A DNA stretch of 52,067 nucleotides from a virus: positions 1 through 52,067 of the IMG/VR virus record IMGVR_UViG_3300006108_000019; one strand, 5' to 3'. How positions within the stretch are numbered: the stretch's first letter is position 1; each line of letters starts with the position of its first letter. The position numbers and the translations under genes are program-made. Positions 1,529 to 50,928 of this stretch are shown here, piece by piece. The notes below the pieces were generated by a model that saw nothing but the letters and a program-made list of their open reading frames with translations, searched no databases and had not been told where the DNA came from.

Positions 1529-1738
1529 ATGAATTTTATTAAACGATTAACTGATGGTGAACATTATAACCAATCAACCTTGGCGAAAACTATTGGCTGT
1601 TCTCGCCAGCTAGTAAGCCTATGGATTAATGGCGATGTCCGCATCAATAGACAACACACAAAGCTAATATTACAACTAGCAAAGCAAGTGGGGTTAAAGC
1701 CCACTTACGAAGAGCTTCTTGAGATTGCCTCTGCTTAA
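1529..1738 (+). CDS. Cro/CI-like helix-turn-helix regulator, 69 aa
   Basis: Residues 14-37 (YNQSTLAKTIGCSRQLVSLW) form a textbook HTH: Leu-Ala-X-X-hydrophobic-Gly-Cys-Ser-Arg-Gln-hydrophobic-Val-Ser. At 69 aa it has the size of a Cro-type DNA-binding domain with no oligomerisation or cleavage domain. It is the only rightward gene in the first 10 kb and has its own consensus promoter and an AAAGGA ribosome site. It is a candidate to bind the repeated promoter element TAATACCATAT; no integrase or CI partner is visible, so a lysogeny role is not implied. Confidence 0.85.
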   Translation: MNFIKRLTDGEHYNQSTLAKTIGCSRQLVSLWINGDVRINRQHTKLILQLAKQVGLKPTYEELLEIASA

Positions 1739-2001: not shown

Positions 2002-2196
2002 TTACTTTTCCTCTTTGCATAATTCAATTAAATGAGCGATTAATTGGGTTCTTGTTAATGAGTATTTGGCACACATTTTCCCCAGAAGGTCGTCATGCTC
2101 TTTTAACAGCCAAAATTGTTTTACAACATATCCATTGGATTTCATCTTTTCAGCTAATCGTTTTTGAGGTGTTTTCCCATCATTTTTTTTAATCAT
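2002..2196 (-). CDS. Ribbon-helix-helix-like DNA-binding protein, 64 aa
   Basis: The segment YVVKQFWLLKEHDDLLG followed by KYSLTRTQLIAHLIELC has the strand-helix-turn-helix pattern of Arc/CopG-type proteins: a beta strand, then helix 1, a Thr-Arg turn, then helix 2. N-terminal residues are basic (KKNDGKTPQKRLAEK). The start overlaps the stop of the RRM-like gene. It could be an autoregulator or act on the early promoters; that is inference. Confidence 0.6.
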   Translation of the reverse strand: MIKKNDGKTPQKRLAEKMKSNGYVVKQFWLLKEHDDLLGKMCAKYSLTRTQLIAHLIELCKEEK

Positions 2197-3891: not shown

Positions 3892-4464
3892 TTAATCCTC
3901 CTTAAAAATTTCAATTAAGCGATCTATTTGAGCATTCCAAGCAGCATCCCAAGCAGCATCCCGAGTATCCCGAGCAGCATCCCAAGCAGCATCCCGAGCA
4001 GCGCAAGCAGCATTCCGAGCAGCGCCCCGAGCAGCGCAAGCATCCTGATCACCGCAAGCATCCCAAGCAGCAGCCCGAGCATCCCGAGCAGCAGCCTGAG
4101 CATCCCGAGCAGCATCCTGAGCATCCCGAGCAGCAGCCTGAGCATCCCGAGCAGCATCTAACTCTTGTTGAGTAGCTTCGCCATTAGCAAACCTTTCTGC
4201 AACGTCTAAAGCATTAATACTTCGCTGATCATTCATTAAATGCTGAACTTTTCTAGCGCACCATACAGCATATAGTCTCAATTCTTTGTCTTTCATAAAA
4301 TAATTTCTACATAAAACCCATAAAATATCATCCATTGATTCTACTTTTGATCTAAACTCAGCAATAAAATTAATCACAGAATCATCATAATGTTCTAACA
4401 TCCCAATTTTTTTGGGGTCATAACATGGATTAAAGCTTTTTATTTGCTTATATGTTATATTCAT
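3892..4464 (-). CDS. Ala-rich repeat protein (AARDAQ repeats), 190 aa
   Basis: Residues 1-95 form a globular helical domain (MNITYKQIK..., ILWVLCRNYF, LRLYAVWCARKVQHLM, ALDVAERFANGEAT). About 75 residues of degenerate five-residue repeats follow (AARDAQ, AARDA, AAWDA), then the amphipathic end QIDRLIEIFKED. The repeats should form a long charged helix or helical solenoid. The same N-terminal domain starts the gene at 1-426. The array DNA is about 60% GC in an AT-rich genome and is open in several frames. An Imm-5-like relationship is possible; activity unknown. Confidence 0.8.
   Translation of the reverse strand: MNITYKQIKSFNPCYDPKKIGMLEHYDDSVINFIAEFRSKVESMDDILWVLCRNYFMKDKELRLYAVWCARKVQHLMNDQRSINALDVAERFANGEATQQELDAARDAQAAARDAQDAARDAQAAARDARAAAWDACGDQDACAARGAARNAACAARDAAWDAARDTRDAAWDAAWNAQIDRLIEIFKED
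3924..4161 (-). repeat. Low-complexity codon array in the Ala-rich gene
   Basis: Degenerate 15-bp units of the type GCAGCATCCCGAGCA are repeated with substitutions. The array is GC-rich relative to the genome and stays open in at least three frames over both strands. It encodes the AARDAQ repeats on the minus strand. Confidence 0.8.
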
Positions 4465-8657: not shown

Positions 8658-8686
8658 ATATTACCATAATAATGGTATGGTGTCAA
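8658..8686 (-). promoter_or_regulatory. Leftward promoter TTGACA-17-TAATAT with CCATACCAT element
   Basis: TTGACA 8686-8681 and TAATAT 8663-8658 on the minus strand. The spacer reads CCATACCATTATTATGG, containing ATACCAT and an inverted CCAT/ATGG. It starts within the last codon and stop of 8683-8865. Confidence 0.7.
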
Positions 8687-9324: not shown

Positions 9325-9407
9325 TTGCTTATCAAATGTATTGATTTGATTGAGACAAATCGCATTAAGCGATTTTTCACAATCAACATTTGGCAGATAA
9401 GCAAATT
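9322..9407 (+). ncRNA. 86-nt nested inverted repeat; candidate structured RNA or DNA hairpin
   Basis: Three nested stems are visible. 9322-9333 pairs perfectly with 9396-9407 (AATTTGCTTATC/GATAAGCAAATT). 9334-9339 pairs with 9386-9391 (AAATGT/ACATTT). 9347-9352 pairs with 9380-9385 (TGATTG/CAATCA). A terminal hairpin 9357-9363/9369-9375 (AAATCGC/GCGATTT) has loop ATTAA. Because transcription should begin near 9331, the outer stem exists fully only in DNA or in a transcript from elsewhere; the inner three stems could form in the RNA. Alternatives are an origin hairpin or a protein-binding site. Confidence 0.55.
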
Positions 9408-9492
9408 AGGTCGAATATACTTGCCAGAGGTCTAGCTTTTTAAAAATTATGTTCATTTCTTATACATACAAAATAAAATAACCTTAAATATC

Positions 9493-10314: not shown

Positions 10315-10343
10315 ATCATACTATAAAAATGGTATTCTGTCAA
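10315..10343 (-). promoter_or_regulatory. Leftward promoter TTGACA-17-TATGAT with GAATACCAT element
   Basis: TTGACA 10343-10338, TATGAT 10320-10315 on the minus strand; spacer GAATACCATTTTTATAG carries the AATACCAT core. Drives the four small genes 10268-9810. Confidence 0.75.
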
Positions 10344-10383
10344 GTAATATTATGACAATATATCAAATATATTTAATCAATAG

Positions 10384-10503
10384 CAATACACTTATAGGTG
10401 TATTGGCTAACAACAATGGACTGATCAAGCAATGTTAATAAATACAACTACAAGTGTATTTTGTTTATATTGATAATTATATTTGCATGACTAATTGGTT
10501 AGT
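10384..10503. repeat. Three palindromes in the divergent control region
   Basis: CAATACAC/GTGTATTG (10384-10391/10398-10405, loop TTATAG) and AAATACA/TGTATTT (10440-10446/10455-10461) share the arms AATACA/TGTATT. ACTAATTGGTTAGT (10490-10503) is a third palindrome. The stretch 10344-10614 has no credible gene, so these are candidate operators or origin elements. Confidence 0.5.
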
Positions 10504-10563
10504 TATCGAATTAATTGCTTGAATAAAAGGGGGGTATAGGAGACAACGGTCCAAACCAAGCTC

Positions 10564-10590
10564 ACCATATACTACCCAATAATACCATAT
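10564..10590 (+). promoter_or_regulatory. Extra copies of the TAATACCATAT element
   Basis: ACCATAT at 10564-10570 and an exact TAATACCATAT at 10580-10590 lie upstream of the 10615 promoter, which carries another exact copy. The arrangement looks like an upstream operator. Confidence 0.6.
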
Positions 10591-10614
10591 GCCTAACAAC
10601 ATAATAATACAATA

Positions 10615-10643
10615 TTGACATAATACCATATATGTAGTATAAT
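10615..10643 (+). promoter_or_regulatory. Rightward promoter TTGACA-17-TATAAT with TAATACCATAT spacer
   Basis: TTGACA 10615-10620, TAATACCATAT 10621-10631 fills most of the spacer, TATAAT 10638-10643. An AAGGAG site and ATG follow 20 nt later. Confidence 0.85.
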
Positions 10644-10664
10644 AAGCGCATAAGGAGTTGCAAA

Positions 10665-10919
10665 ATGACAAACAAAGAAACGGCTGGAATAATAAAAGAG
10701 TTTACAGATGGAAGCTTATTTTATAAAAAGAATTATTCTGATTTTTATATTTTGACGTCTGACGGTGTCCGCTTAGAGATAAGATTTACAATGTTTGAAG
10801 ATAGGGTTTTTAAGCATTTAAAAATATTTGGCGGCGCCGATATAAATGATGAAAAAAAAGAATTTATTCTTTCATACCTTTTAAAAGAATTTCCATTAGA
10901 AAAGTTTAAATTTATTTAA
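10665..10919 (+). CDS. Unknown early protein, 84 aa
   Basis: MTNKETAGIIKEFTDGSLFY start with AAGGAG upstream. Alternating strands (DFYILTSDGVRLEIRFTMF) and an acidic C-terminal helix. First rightward gene, under the TAATACCATAT promoter. No family recognised. Confidence 0.75.
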   Translation: MTNKETAGIIKEFTDGSLFYKKNYSDFYILTSDGVRLEIRFTMFEDRVFKHLKIFGGADINDEKKEFILSYLLKEFPLEKFKFI

Positions 10920-10928
10920 ATTCTAATA

Positions 10929-11176
10929 ATGCAATATATTACTGTCCATGATATAATTCCCCACCAAATGAACCATTAGATTTATATAAGGAAGATGATA
11001 AAGTCACCCCTTGGTGGAGCTTTCCAAACATTAAATCAGATAGTCTTCTTTTACGAGCACAGCAACTCACGCCAATAATTGATGGGTTATTGATGGGTTG
11101 CTGTGCGAGGTTTTTAGCTGCAGAAAAAAAACACAATAACTATGGCGGCAGAAAAAACCGTTCCCGTTATTTTTAA
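10929..11176 (+). pseudogene. Probable gene broken by a 1-nt frameshift at CCCC
   Basis: An ATG 10 nt after the previous stop begins MQYITVHDIIP and soon hits TAG. In the -1 frame from CCCC (10959-10962) the reading continues NEPLDLYKEDDKVTPWWSFP then SDSLLLRAQQLTPIIDGLLM to TAA 11174-11176, with coding-like sequence and no ATG of its own until late. The junction fits one missing C in a C-run. It may be a real mutation, a sequencing error or a slip site. No ribosome site is visible before the ATG. Confidence 0.4.
11057..11106 (+). repeat. 10-bp perfect inverted repeat with nested inner stem
   Basis: GCACAGCAAC 11057-11066 pairs with GTTGCTGTGC 11097-11106. Inside, CAATAA 11073-11078 pairs with TTATTG 11087-11092, and GATGGGTTATTGATGGGTT is a direct repeat. 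GAGG then TTTTT follow on the plus strand, so it could end rightward transcription from 10615. It lies within the broken gene above. Confidence 0.55.
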
Positions 11177-11290
11177 TCCTAAAAGACCAGCCTCATATAG
11201 TTTAGACAGTATTAATCTTTCTGGAATAAAAAGCATTCCAAGGGCGATTAAAAAGAATAAAGCAAAGTCTAGCTTAAGTAAATATATCAT
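11114..11290 (-). CDS. Two-pass membrane protein, 58 aa
   Basis: MIYLLKLDFALFFLIALGML then a loop FIPERLILSKLYEAG and a second segment VFSAAIVIVFFFCS. GGGAG precedes the ATG, which overlaps the TAA of the 18-codon frame upstream. Hydrophobic profile is clear; function unknown. A rightward frame over the same DNA is rejected. Confidence 0.65.
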   Translation of the reverse strand: MIYLLKLDFALFFLIALGMLFIPERLILSKLYEAGLLGLKITGTVFSAAIVIVFFFCS

Positions 11291-11346
11291 TAGGTACTCC
11301 CACCAAGTTCATTTTCTTTCATTGTAAAAAATTCTTCTTTAGTCAT
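11290..11346 (-). CDS. Possible 18-aa peptide between coupled genes
   Basis: MTKEEFFTMKENELGGST begins by overlapping the stop of 11339-11593 and ends by overlapping the membrane gene's ATG. Its last codons (GGTGGGAG) are that gene's ribosome site. It may be only a coupling frame. Confidence 0.4.
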   Translation of the reverse strand: MTKEEFFTMKENELGGST

Positions 11347-11593
11347 TCACTTTATCCCCATCAACAACTGCAAGCCTAATATATCTATACATATTTAATT
11401 TTTTACTAAAAAACGCATCGCCCGTTATGCGTAGAAGCTTTTGAAGCTGAGGTCCAAAAGCAATCTCCTCTGGCTCGGGGCAAACATTTTTATCGTAATA
11501 AAAATAAAAATAATGGTCAATTAATGACCTAGCTTTTTCTCTATCCTCTTCTATTAAGGAATCCAACACCTCATTGCTTGGCTTTAATTTCAT
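11339..11593 (-). CDS. Unknown helical protein, 84 aa
   Basis: MKLKPSNEVLDSLIEEDREK start with GAGGTGAG upstream; later LIDHYFYFYYDKNVCPEPEE and LRITGDAFFSKKLN. Leftward gene under the promoter at 11619-11647, in a region otherwise transcribed rightward. Unknown. Confidence 0.65.
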   Translation of the reverse strand: MKLKPSNEVLDSLIEEDREKARSLIDHYFYFYYDKNVCPEPEEIAFGPQLQKLLRITGDAFFSKKLNMYRYIRLAVVDGDKVND

Positions 11594-11618
11594 AACTCAC
11601 CTCTTTAATTAGAAACGT

Positions 11619-11647
11619 ATAATACCATATCCTTGACAATTTGTCAA
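11619..11647 (-). promoter_or_regulatory. Leftward promoter TTGACA-17-TATTAT overlapping TAATACCATAT
   Basis: TTGACA 11647-11642 and TATTAT 11624-11619 on the minus strand. The exact element TAATACCATAT at 11620-11630 covers the -10 box. It interlocks with the divergent promoter at 11633-11661. Confidence 0.75.
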
Positions 11648-11661
11648 TAATACCATATACT
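11633..11661 (+). promoter_or_regulatory. Rightward promoter TTGACA-17-TATACT with TAATACCATAT
   Basis: TTGACA 11633-11638 and TATACT 11656-11661; the element occupies 11648-11658. The predicted transcription start is at or 1 nt before the ATG at 11669, and no Shine-Dalgarno exists, so the mRNA should be leaderless. Confidence 0.8.
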
Positions 11662-11668
11662 ATTATTT

Positions 11669-12127
11669 ATGATATTTGAAAAGCCAAAAAGCATTGAAAG
11701 CCTATACGGACTTAGCGCAATAAAGTCTTGCGTTAGGAGGTGCGCTAGCTTTGTTGATGATGAGGGGTTAAGTCGCTCTGAAGCGCATGAAAAATTTCCA
11801 CTTGCTAAAATAAGCAATATTTTTGAGTTTATAATACCAAATATTATTAAAAACAGGGAGGAATTTTACAGCTCTTTGCGTTCGCCATCTGCTGAAGAAG
11901 TTCGCAACGAGGAATATTTTATAAAATACAAGGCTGAGATTGAAGAAAAAATAAAAAAAGAAAACATTTTTTATGAAGAAATTCTGCATTTTATAGAGAT
12001 TGCGGCTATAGAAATAAACAATTATTGTTGTAATAACAAAGTTGGGGATGACGATGTTGTTAAATATTGGATGTCGGTATTTTTAAAAAACTACAAAACT
12101 GTAGCCGACATTTCTCTTTTGTGGTGA
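11669..12127 (+). CDS. Unknown early protein, 152 aa (leaderless)
   Basis: MIFEKPKSIESLYGLSAIKS start lies 7 nt after the -10 box. Helical protein with IEEKIKKENIFYEEILHFIE and a Cys pair INNYCCNN. No family recognised. Alone in its unit, followed at once by the next TAATACCATAT promoter. Confidence 0.75.
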   Translation: MIFEKPKSIESLYGLSAIKSCVRRCASFVDDEGLSRSEAHEKFPLAKISNIFEFIIPNIIKNREEFYSSLRSPSAEEVRNEEYFIKYKAEIEEKIKKENIFYEEILHFIEIAAIEINNYCCNNKVGDDDVVKYWMSVFLKNYKTVADISLLW

Positions 12128-12146
12128 TAAAGTAATACCATATCTC

Positions 12147-12174
12147 TTGACAAATATTAAATTTACTGTATAAT
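12147..12174 (+). promoter_or_regulatory. Rightward promoter TTGACA-16-TATAAT flanked by two TAATACCATAT
   Basis: TTGACA 12147-12152 and TATAAT 12169-12174. Exact element copies lie at 12133-12143 and 12171-12181, the second running from the -10 directly to the ATG at 12182. A repressor here would cover both ends of the promoter. Confidence 0.85.
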
Positions 12175-12181
12175 ACCATAT

Positions 12182-12718
12182 ATGTTAAATTTTATTTACA
12201 ACAGTCCTACATTTACCTATTTAGAAGCGTCAGAGATATTTGATATTGATATTGACTCTGTTATTTTTGTGGGTCATTTTTATGATCCTTTTACACCAAC
12301 TTTAAACAAGGCTCAAAAAATAAAATTTGGAAAGCTTTGCGCGTGTGGAGATTATCATGCTGATGATTTTAATCCAGTGGAGCATAAGCACATATTTTAT
12401 ATGTCTGATTGCGAGTGGGTGGCGGGCTGCCTTTATAACCTTATAAATTATAGCGCCGAACGCGGAATAAAAAATCTTTGTGACCACAAAAAGGAAAAAG
12501 ATGATTTTCTAAAACGCATTAAAAATTTTAATAATATGGTGTGTGGTACATTTGATAGTCAGATTAATGGAGCTATAAACTCTAAAGGCGAAAAAAGAGA
12601 GGCGGGTGAGTGCAGAAAGCTTTTAACTGAATCTGGGGTATATGTTCCAGACTATTGGGATTTTAGAATGAATGGATTTAAAACCATTTCTGTTTTTAAA
12701 GATAAAATTGAGCTATAA
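12182..12718 (+). CDS. Unknown early protein, 178 aa (leaderless)
   Basis: MLNFIYNSPTFTYLEASEIF start coincides with the expected +1 of the promoter and has no ribosome site. Cys/His-rich centre (KLCACGDYHADDF, EHKHIFYMSDCEW, NLCDHKK) suggests metal binding. End resembles RKLLTESGVYVPDYWDFR. No known family. Confidence 0.75.
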   Translation: MLNFIYNSPTFTYLEASEIFDIDIDSVIFVGHFYDPFTPTLNKAQKIKFGKLCACGDYHADDFNPVEHKHIFYMSDCEWVAGCLYNLINYSAERGIKNLCDHKKEKDDFLKRIKNFNNMVCGTFDSQINGAINSKGEKREAGECRKLLTESGVYVPDYWDFRMNGFKTISVFKDKIEL

Positions 12719-12726
12719 TACCATAT
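12716..12726 (+). promoter_or_regulatory. TAATACCATAT element at gene end
   Basis: An exact copy overlaps the stop codon of 12182-12718. A weak TTGAGC-17-TATCCA promoter could be centred on it, with the element in the spacer as elsewhere. Confidence 0.5.
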
Positions 12727-12776
12727 TAATTATCCAGAAGGAGAAGGCGTTGATAGTTATGAGATATAGGTGGAAA

Positions 12777-13070
12777 ATGAGTGAAAACAAAACAGAGTCA
12801 GTGATAATGGTTGAGCGTTCAGCGCAACTTATTATTAATGATATATTTAATATGAAATATGATGAGCATAGCCAAATAGACTCGAAAGTTATTTCAGACT
12901 TAGTTGGATTGCTTTGTTCAATTTTAGAATTGAGAGAAAAATATAAATATATAATTAGGGATGAAATAAGTGAAAAAAAGCTAACAGACCCTGTTTTTAC
13001 GAACGAAGATCAGGAATTGGGGTTTGCTGGGTCTCTTTCGTTAGCGTTGGAGAAGCCACAAATCCTTTAA
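12777..13070 (+). CDS. Unknown early protein, 97 aa
   Basis: Start MSENKTESVIMVERSAQLII follows AGGTGG. A TTG at 12750 after AAGGAG would add nine residues. Helical: DSKVISDLVGLLCSILELRE. Unknown. Confidence 0.65.
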   Translation: MSENKTESVIMVERSAQLIINDIFNMKYDEHSQIDSKVISDLVGLLCSILELREKYKYIIRDEISEKKLTDPVFTNEDQELGFAGSLSLALEKPQIL

Positions 13071-13103
13071 ACATCGTAAAGATTTTTATTCTGCTTTCCA
13101 GTC

Positions 13104-13132
13104 TTGACTTATAATACCATATAGTGTATGAT
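13104..13132 (+). promoter_or_regulatory. Promoter TTGACT-17-TATGAT with TAATACCATAT spacer
   Basis: TTGACT 13104-13109, exact element 13112-13122, TATGAT 13127-13132. The expected start is G13139, exactly the first base of the 7-bp closing stem of the RNA below. Confidence 0.8.
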
Positions 13133-13138
13133 TCATTC

Positions 13139-13265
13139 GTTCTCGTGGCGGAATTAGACGCAATATAATTTAATATACAGCATTGTTGAATTATATTTAA
13201 TCATGACACTTAAATTGTGCTATTTTGTGCTTGACTGATTGTCCAGGTAAAATCTTGGCGAGAAC
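13139..13265 (+). ncRNA. Promoter-anchored 127-nt RNA with tRNA-Leu-like ends
   Basis: GTTCTCG 13139-13145 pairs perfectly with CGAGAAC 13259-13265, like an acceptor stem. TG and GCG-GAATTAGA-CGC follow, matching the tRNA-Leu 5' region TGGCGGAATTGGTAGACGC with GGT missing. Before the 3' arm, CCAGG-TAAAAT-CTTGG (13243-13258) sits where the T-arm should be, but the loop is 6 nt and not TTCRA. Between them is a 10-bp hairpin 13163-13172/13187-13196 and an AT-rich segment; no standard anticodon arm and no CCA. It is tRNA-like but too long and too degenerate for a working tRNA. Confidence 0.6.
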
Positions 13266-13287
13266 ATTAATTAATTAGAGGGTATTT

Positions 13288-14064: not shown

Positions 14065-14136
14065 CAGGGAGTAGCTCAGTGGAAGAACGTAGAATTTATT
14101 CTGCGGGCGAAGGTTCGATTCCTTCCTCCTTGACCA
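14065..14136 (+). tRNA. Aberrant tRNA-like gene with encoded CCA
   Basis: Acceptor CAGGGAG 14065-14071 pairs with CTCCTTG 14126-14132, then ACCA. The T-arm GAAGG-TTCGATT-CCTTC is canonical. The D-arm GCTC-AGTGGAA-GAAC has one mismatch. The anticodon stem GTAGA/TCTGC leaves only a 6-nt loop ATTTAT, one short. With U33 at 14095 the anticodon would be TTA (reads UAA); TAT is the other reading. Either a decaying tRNA, or one with an altered anticodon loop. Confidence 0.55.
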
Positions 14137-14272: not shown

Positions 14273-14347
14273 TGTCTTGTAGCTCAGAGGTAGAGCAGGA
14301 AACTGTTAATCTCTTGGTCGCTGGTTCGAGCCCAGCCGAGACAGCCA
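14273..14347 (+). tRNA. tRNA-Asn (anticodon GTT), CCA encoded
   Basis: Acceptor TGTCTTG/CGAGACA, D-arm GCTC-AGAGGTA-GAGC, anticodon loop CTGTTAA with GTT at 14305-14307, variable TGGTC, T-arm GCTGG-TTCGAGC-CCAGC, then GCCA. All arms pair except one A-C in the anticodon stem. It resembles bacterial tRNA-Asn closely. It may compensate for AAT/AAC use in this Asn-rich proteome or replace host tRNA cut by anticodon nucleases. Confidence 0.9.
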
Positions 14348-47232: not shown

Positions 47233-47261
47233 ATTATACGGTATTATAGATTAATTGTCAA
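47233..47261 (-). promoter_or_regulatory. Leftward promoter TTGACA-17-TATAAT with TAATACCGTAT
   Basis: TTGACA 47261-47256, TATAAT 47238-47233 on the minus strand. The spacer holds TAATACCG, one mismatch from the early element. About 140 nt of leader precede the first small frame; 47084-47232 has no other gene. Confidence 0.75.
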
Positions 47262-49351: not shown

Positions 49352-50359
49352 TTAATCCTGATATTTTATTAAAAAATCATTATTTATGACTTTAAAAGAT
49401 ATATCGCCATATTTTAAAACAACGCCTTCTCGAATATCTGAATTCAAGCTTTTCCCTTTGGCAAACTCTAGTAATTCATCAATGGTATTAAAATCAGTTA
49501 TCTTATAATCCCCATAAATTGGAATATGTTTTATTCCGCATGATTTAAATAAAAAATCATTCACAATATCCATTCTCTCATTAGGGGTTAAGTATCTAAA
49601 ATTATCAATATCAAAAATATCAAACAAATAAAAATCTTGGGACCTAATATTTTCTTTGTTTCCCTGGATTCCTTCGCCAATAATTTCGCCTTGGAGAGCG
49701 ATATTTTTTCCATAGGATTTTAAAAAAGTAAATATATTTTTTTCTGTGCCTACGAAATTATACGTATTCCCCGAGTCCATTTTTAACTCCATGTTTCGAG
49801 AACAATAACCTAATTCTCCATCTTTATAGTAGTAGGTCGCGCTTGTTCCATCCAGCTTCAAAGATACTTCAAATAAAATATCTTTATGGTCTCTATTTAT
49901 TTCTTTCCAGCAATTTTGGATCCTTTCTTGATCAGTTTTTTTAATGAACGAAGGAAAATTTCCTCTACATAATCCGACAAGCTGCGCTGGAGTCGGGGGT
50001 TCGTATTTGATGACTCCAAGAGTCTCTGAAATATCATCATCAATTCCAATATCTTCAAAACTGTCGGGAATTGGTAATGCAAGCCCTTGGCTAACGCACC
50101 CCCTCAATTTAATAGTTCTCAATCTAAAACCTTCAGTCCCATCAACCAGCTTTTTATAACAGCCTTTTCTTAAAAATTCATATTCTGGCTTTATTGGCAA
50201 AAATGAATCTATCTCAAAATAAACGCACCAATCCTTTTCTTTAAATTCATCTTTTTTTACAATAACCTTCCAGCCTTTTATTGTTGCAATTTCCAATAAA
50301 TCGGCATTTGGGTGTTTTTCTAATTTCTCAATAACCTTGATCGTTGCAAGATTTCTCAT
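49352..50359 (-). CDS. RNA ligase, DRB0094/Rnl5 family, 335 aa
   Basis: N-terminal OB domain MRNLATIKVIEKLEKHPNAD and WKVIVKKDEFKEKDWCVYFE, then the ligase: SLKLDGTSAT (Lys168 nucleophile), motif IIIa-like NIALQGEIIG, IV REGVVLK and V SFKVINNDFLIK. This order is typical of Rnl5 ligases, which seal nicked RNA. With the phage tRNAs it suggests tRNA repair. No kinase-phosphatase is seen. Confidence 0.88.
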   Translation of the reverse strand: MRNLATIKVIEKLEKHPNADLLEIATIKGWKVIVKKDEFKEKDWCVYFEIDSFLPIKPEYEFLRKGCYKKLVDGTEGFRLRTIKLRGCVSQGLALPIPDSFEDIGIDDDISETLGVIKYEPPTPAQLVGLCRGNFPSFIKKTDQERIQNCWKEINRDHKDILFEVSLKLDGTSATYYYKDGELGYCSRNMELKMDSGNTYNFVGTEKNIFTFLKSYGKNIALQGEIIGEGIQGNKENIRSQDFYLFDIFDIDNFRYLTPNERMDIVNDFLFKSCGIKHIPIYGDYKITDFNTIDELLEFAKGKSLNSDIREGVVLKYGDISFKVINNDFLIKYQD

Positions 50360-50900: not shown

Positions 50901-50928
50901 ATAATACCAATCTATTGTTTTTTGTCAA
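50901..50928 (-). promoter_or_regulatory. Leftward promoter TTGACA-16-TATTAT with TAATACCA
   Basis: TTGACA 50928-50923 and TATTAT 50906-50901 on the minus strand; plus-strand TAATACCA (50902-50909) overlaps the -10. It overlaps no gene and would drive the RNA-ligase/primase unit. Confidence 0.7.

Follow-up and report, generated by a model that had tools for sequence, protein, structure and literature searches.

In the genome record of an uncultured bacterial virus (IMGVR_UViG_3300006108_000019; 52,067 bases, analysed at full length and referred to here as the window), we identified an 11-bp word, TAATACCATAT, that recurs in eight exact copies in and beside a group of strong promoters. Judging from the sequence, we consider this word (fuller form ATAATACCATAT) to be the putative binding site of one sequence-specific regulator, serving as an operator for a set of early transcription units, and assign this interpretation a probability of about 0.68. 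A record-wide search confirmed the eight copies described in the initial annotation (starting at 10580, 10621, 11620, 11648, 12133, 12171, 12716 and 13112), all on the plus strand and spanning 2.5 kb, and found no further exact copy in the rest of the record. The accompanying claim that chance would yield far fewer than one copy was also borne out, as dinucleotide shuffles gave an expectation of 0.12 copies per record and eight copies were reached in none of 100 shuffles. Markov models applied to both strands gave similar expectations, from 0.08 (order 1) to 0.14 (order 4). The most frequent noncoding 9-mer of the window is ATACCATAT, and the sole 11-mer commoner than TAATACCATAT is ATGGCTCTGGC (9 copies), which looks like a repeat sequence within genes.

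The fuller form is present in seven of the eight copies, position -1 being A in seven of eight. The resulting 12-bp word, RTAATACCATAT, is asymmetric and its flanks are random, with a mean pairwise identity of 0.29 on the left and 0.32 on the right against 0.28 expected. Since the flanks are alike only at the level of chance, the copies are not visible remnants of a longer duplicated cassette, and the lack of homology outside the word indicates that the word itself is maintained. Seven copies are entirely noncoding (noncoding DNA makes up 7.8% of the window and 33% of the region 10344-13287). The copy at 12716 shares three bases with a stop codon; otherwise all eight are intergenic.

Exact copies are associated with five promoters between 10.6 and 13.2 kb, namely P10615, P11633, the divergent P11647, P12147 and P13104, which are the best-defended promoters of this region (Table 1). 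The array is located immediately to the right of the switch from leftward to rightward genes, where the sign of the GC skew flips too. The statement that spacers and -10 boxes harbour most copies holds for five of them (10621 and 13112 in spacers; 11648, 12171 and 11620 over -10 boxes), while 12133 and 10580 lie upstream of a -35 box and 12716 has no convincing promoter. In the divergent pair, a palindrome common to P11633 and P11647 contains both -35 boxes, and each promoter has its own -10 copy (centred at -15 and -13, respectively); counted from the partner promoter, these copies lie at -41/-43. The plus-strand orientation of the copies is that of most downstream genes; the copy at 11620 is reversed with respect to the leftward -10 box that it covers, and reverse half-sites are found in leftward promoters. 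By eye, no convincing helical phase of the copies with respect to +1 could be made out.

Table 1. Coordinates of the exact copies, promoters, dyads, candidate regulators and structured RNA in the window
Feature	Coordinates	Strand	Remarks
Exact copy 1	10580..10590	+	35 bp upstream of the -35 box of P10615; centre -65
P10615, TTGACA-17-TATAAT (12/12 consensus)	10615..10643	+	Copy 2 (10621-10631) in spacer, centre -24
Exact copy 3	11620..11630	+	Covers -10 box of leftward P11647; at -43 for rightward P11633
P11647, TTGACA-17-TATTAT, TG before -10	11619..11647	-	Promoter of ORF 11339-11593
P11633, TTGACA-17-TATACT	11633..11661	+	Copy 4 (11648-11658) runs into -10 box; drives ORF 11669-12127
Exact copy 5	12133..12143	+	Directly upstream of the -35 box of P12147; centre -43
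P12147, TTGACA-16-TATAAT (12/12)	12147..12174	+	Drives ORF 12182-12718
Exact copy 6	12171..12181	+	Overlaps -10 box of P12147 and extends to +1; centre -5
Exact copy 7	12716..12726	+	Between co-directional genes; begins with the 3-base stop codon of ORF 12182-12718
P13104, TTGACT-17-TATGAT	13104..13132	+	Copy 8 (13112-13122) in spacer, centre -22
P47261	47233..47261	-	One-mismatch copy TAATACCGTAT at 47236-47246, over -10 box; P=0.008 against matched null
Dyad TTACCAT-N4-ATGGTAT, one mismatch	8661..8678		Within leftward promoter P8686
Dyad ATACTAT-N4-ATGGTAT, one mismatch	10318..10335		Within leftward promoter P10343
Candidate binder, 69-aa Cro/C1-type helix-turn-helix (HTH) protein	1529..1738	+	Predicted fold; own promoter P1470
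Second candidate, 64-aa protein, possible ribbon-helix-helix (RHH) fold, unconfirmed	2002..2196	-	Weak family matches
Structured RNA with tRNA-like ends	13139..13266	+	Fold z-score -2.7; first base is the predicted +1 of P13104
ORF, open reading frame; aa, amino acids.

Outside this array, the word had been described as phage-wide, with one-mismatch or core versions in several leftward promoters and elsewhere. A single mismatch was confirmed only at 47236 and 16561, whereas two mismatches were counted at 8658, 10315 and 4806 and three at 50901. Against a null model that kept the promoter hexamers and the intergenic composition, P47261 is the only outlying promoter that is individually significant, the others having P values of 0.09-0.55 (about 0.09-0.13 for P1311, P4834, P8686 and P10343, with P50928 and P9162 unremarkable). 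A scan for dyads over all spacers from 0 to 12 yielded four sites at one mismatch or fewer, where 0.24 would be expected, and in 300 simulated sequences the count never rose to four. The half-site centres of the dyads are separated by 11 bp, roughly a turn of the helix. P10615 also matches the dyad ATACCAT-N4-ATGGTAT, with two mismatches, and the remaining exact copies have no good second arm. In the two leftward promoters P8686 and P10343, this dyad may represent the two-fold form of the site of the same binder. Thus, with the exception of P47261 and these two dyad sites, most outlying matches are at the level expected by chance in promoter-like AT-rich DNA. The phage-wide extent of the set is accordingly reduced to these exceptions, the exact copies being restricted to 2.5 kb.

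For the ORFs 11669-12127 and 12182-12718 the predicted +1 lies one base upstream of the ATG, so that both mRNAs are probably leaderless. The RNA at 13139-13266 has an 8-bp acceptor-like stem, a D-arm-like segment (GTGGCGGAATTAGACGC) resembling tRNA-Leu by inspection, and a long AT hairpin in the middle, where an anticodon arm would be expected; it was called neither by ARAGORN nor by Rfam. The proteins of the motif-bearing units that were examined gave no convincing family match or relative. Two tRNA genes are located further along the plus strand, at 14065-14136 (anticodon unclear; ARAGORN reads two bases, tt) and 14273-14347 (tRNA-Asn). Another, strongly structured RNA (9325-9440, plus strand; fold z-score -4.0) lies downstream of promoter P9296 in a sparsely coding stretch of about 700 bp; it has no Rfam match, and the motif is absent there.

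Regarding the binder, a phage-encoded regulator is most likely, and the plausible candidate is the 69-aa protein encoded at 1529-1738, in line with its earlier description as an HTH protein. It was modelled confidently as a five-helix Cro/C1 domain (pLDDT 88), its Foldseek neighbours include P22 c2, 434 Cro, C.BclI and SinR (with E-values that are weak, the domain being short), and its match to Pfam HTH_3 is slightly below the curated cut-off. An HTH dimer fits the dyad sites with their 11-bp separation of half-site centres. Single asymmetric copies would need either another protein or binding by one arm, by analogy with SinR, whose Cro-like domain recognises single, tandem or inverted copies of a 7-bp asymmetric word (PMC3163267). 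The analogy is one of mechanism only, as SinR is a cellular biofilm regulator with another word (GTTCTYT). The 64-aa product of 2002-2196 matches a phage repressor family weakly, and its model, which is of low confidence, is helical and contains no strand. Because the RHH strand forms in the dimer, a strandless monomer model does not decide this fold, and the RHH reading is not confirmed. A scan of the other 47 small proteins detected no clear DNA-binding regulator. That the binder is specifically the 69-aa protein is a tentative proposal, which we would rate somewhat below even odds.

Given their near-consensus -35 and -10 boxes, the motif-bearing promoters can be expected to be used by the host RNA polymerase without delay. 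In the mechanism that we propose, host polymerase would initiate at these strong promoters upon phage entry, and the phage regulator would then accumulate and occupy sites that overlap the polymerase footprint. Bound in the spacer, on the -10 box or up to +1, the regulator would exclude RNA polymerase, and the units would be shut off together. Additional copies near -42 and -65 would raise occupancy; they are also compatible with a minor activator role. The regulated set would consist of the short early units that adjoin the divergent control region on its right, with the two probably leaderless genes and the tRNA-like RNA among them.

An operator function of the word appears probable, and operator-type sites in early promoters are the best reading of what the initial annotation called an operator set. 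It is supported by the eight exact noncoding copies within or next to the region's strongest promoters, including coverage of both -10 boxes of the divergent pair, by the dyad cores in two leftward promoters, and by the one-mismatch copy over the -10 box of P47261. The word is absent from P1470 and P9296, which serve the HTH gene and the 9325 RNA, and a gene for a Cro/C1-fold protein is present; both points lead the same way. Several observations weigh against it. The binder is known as a candidate only, and viral and genome scans revealed no relative in which conservation could be judged. The copy centres vary widely relative to +1 (-65, -43, -24, -22, -15, -13 and -5), and the copy at 12716 is away from any clear promoter. 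Single-domain Cro proteins normally bind dyads, yet the exact word is asymmetric; and the lack of a copy in the promoter of the HTH gene itself also counts here. A more specific scheme, in which a single-domain Cro-like protein would recognise one asymmetric 12-bp word, whether single, tandem, divergent or in dyads, and so time a series of early units of one gene each, leaderless mRNAs and a tRNA-like RNA among them, in a phage without recognised lysogeny genes, seems to us unlikely.

The positions of some copies would also suit an activator site, or an orientation-specific element that makes the promoters strong or phage-specific, instead of an operator for repression. Centres at -41 to -43 and at -65 are usual for activators, and most copies are oriented with transcription. 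However, promoters whose boxes are already near-consensus should hardly need activation, most copies coincide with polymerase contacts, the distance to +1 is not constant, and the copy at 11620 serves P11647 in reverse orientation, so we regard this explanation as improbable. The chances are poorer still that the copies serve a host regulator, which the phage exploits or has to evade. The promoters are of the host sigma-70 type and the binder is only a candidate, as this explanation would allow, but paired exact copies occur at only six places in the genomes of 84,980 species (the host of the phage not being identified), all of them unrelated repeats or coding sequence and none with an intervening TTGACA.

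Promoter-stem-loop cassettes have been described in T4-type phages, and one copy or pair for each small orphan gene might suggest boundary or shuffling repeats that mark mobile early-gene cassettes spread by recombination, with no regulator involved. We find this very improbable, as the homology between copies ends at 12 bp, which is short for recombination, and the position of the word relative to gene starts varies. The irregular spacing of the copies and the intervening genes led us to reject replication iterons. As for chance, words of this kind do arise in AT-rich promoter DNA, and many unrelated viral contigs have single copies beside TTGACA at roughly the chance level; for the array, this explanation is refuted by the number of exact copies (eight within 2.5 kb, where all 52 kb should contain 0.08-0.14), and we leave it hardly any weight.

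Among known systems, the nearest layouts by analogy with the proposed operator set are SPBRE/MrpR of SPbeta and the C1 operators of P1. SPBRE is a 15-bp word repeated in the promoter regions of about ten genes of a temperate Bacillus prophage; it was first found from sequence, and its binder, the 320-aa recombinase-fold protein MrpR/YopR, was shown later (PMC10516654). The present phage similarly has one word in several promoter regions, with exact copies in five promoters, but the word is another one, and no repressor of the tyrosine-recombinase fold was recognised among the proteins scanned, some late genes being outside the scan. The P1 C1 operators (ATTGCTCTAATAAATTT) are asymmetric, 17 bp long and dispersed over 22 sites in the genome of a temperate plasmid-prophage (PMC8546580). 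They share with the present word its asymmetry and its multiple copies at many promoters of one phage, and differ from the eight exact sites within 2.5 kb observed here. The stoperators of L5 and cluster A phages, to which the array had been compared, are 13 bp long, intergenic, mostly in one orientation relative to transcription and mostly outside promoters, with more than 20 sites genome-wide; their repressor is a monomeric two-domain protein (183 aa), and its isolated HTH fails to bind (PMC9283540, PMC6550527). This comparison remains valid for the asymmetric, repeated intergenic word of similar length (12 bp here) and fails for dispersal, non-promoter location and the two-domain repressor. 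Here, the eight exact sites form a cluster in which seven lie inside a promoter or a short way upstream of one, and the HTH candidate consists of a single 69-aa domain; no L5-like two-domain repressor of about 180 aa was recognised by family match. The copy at 12716 is the sole candidate site for an L5-like block of elongation outside promoters.

Searches for relatives carrying the motif array in viral and genome collections were negative, although these scans favour close relatives and may miss those at 50-80% protein identity. No close relative was found via the terminase, the helicase, ORF 12182, the HTH and RHH proteins or the terminase Walker peptide, and the early region had no DNA match in the phage collection. 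Paired exact motifs occurred in 17 stretches of viral contigs, apparently by chance or in coding sequence, none with a flanking promoter. The pattern TTGACA-N0-18-motif retrieved at least 120 stretches from viral contigs, dominated by one recurrent coding-looking site (probably a terminase codon run); among these stretches, real-looking promoters with one copy each were seen in six unrelated phages, about the chance level. Genome contigs contained no promoter-flanked pairs and six unrelated plain pairs. Acinetobacter phage Effie, brought up by a short blastn search, is without the array; it has its own highly repeated word, AAATCAGAGCG, with 17 copies on both strands, unrelated to the present motif. 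A text search of the literature for the letters TAATACCATA gave, among the matches listed, unrelated ones.

The terminase of the phage is only about 25% identical to those of known phages, and alignment with distant phages (20-24% identity) is too divergent for a profile; the similarity to Brunovirus SEN34 and its kin is only distant. An RNA ligase (49352-50359, minus strand) is closest, at 45% identity, to ligases of large cyanophages, and one of the 47 small ORFs scanned matches the GroES co-chaperonin (Pfam Cpn10, E=7e-13; PHROG, 7e-11). No integrase was recognised among the scanned proteins, a set that some late genes fall outside. Two related stretches with AGC-rich tandem repeats occur at 1-460 and 3892-4464. 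The contig ends may be incomplete; as the contig starts within such a repeat, the assembly may have broken there.

The system described here is ordinary in kind, while its sequence and the phage are new, and the general understanding of phage control is unchanged by it. As in the case of SPBRE and MrpR, repeats embedded in promoters can lead, through sequence analysis alone, to the regulon of a phage and to the master regulator behind it. If the proposed role is correct, the finding would add a new operator word and a candidate protein from a lineage without a close relative in the searched collections, together with a compact set of operator-bearing promoters.

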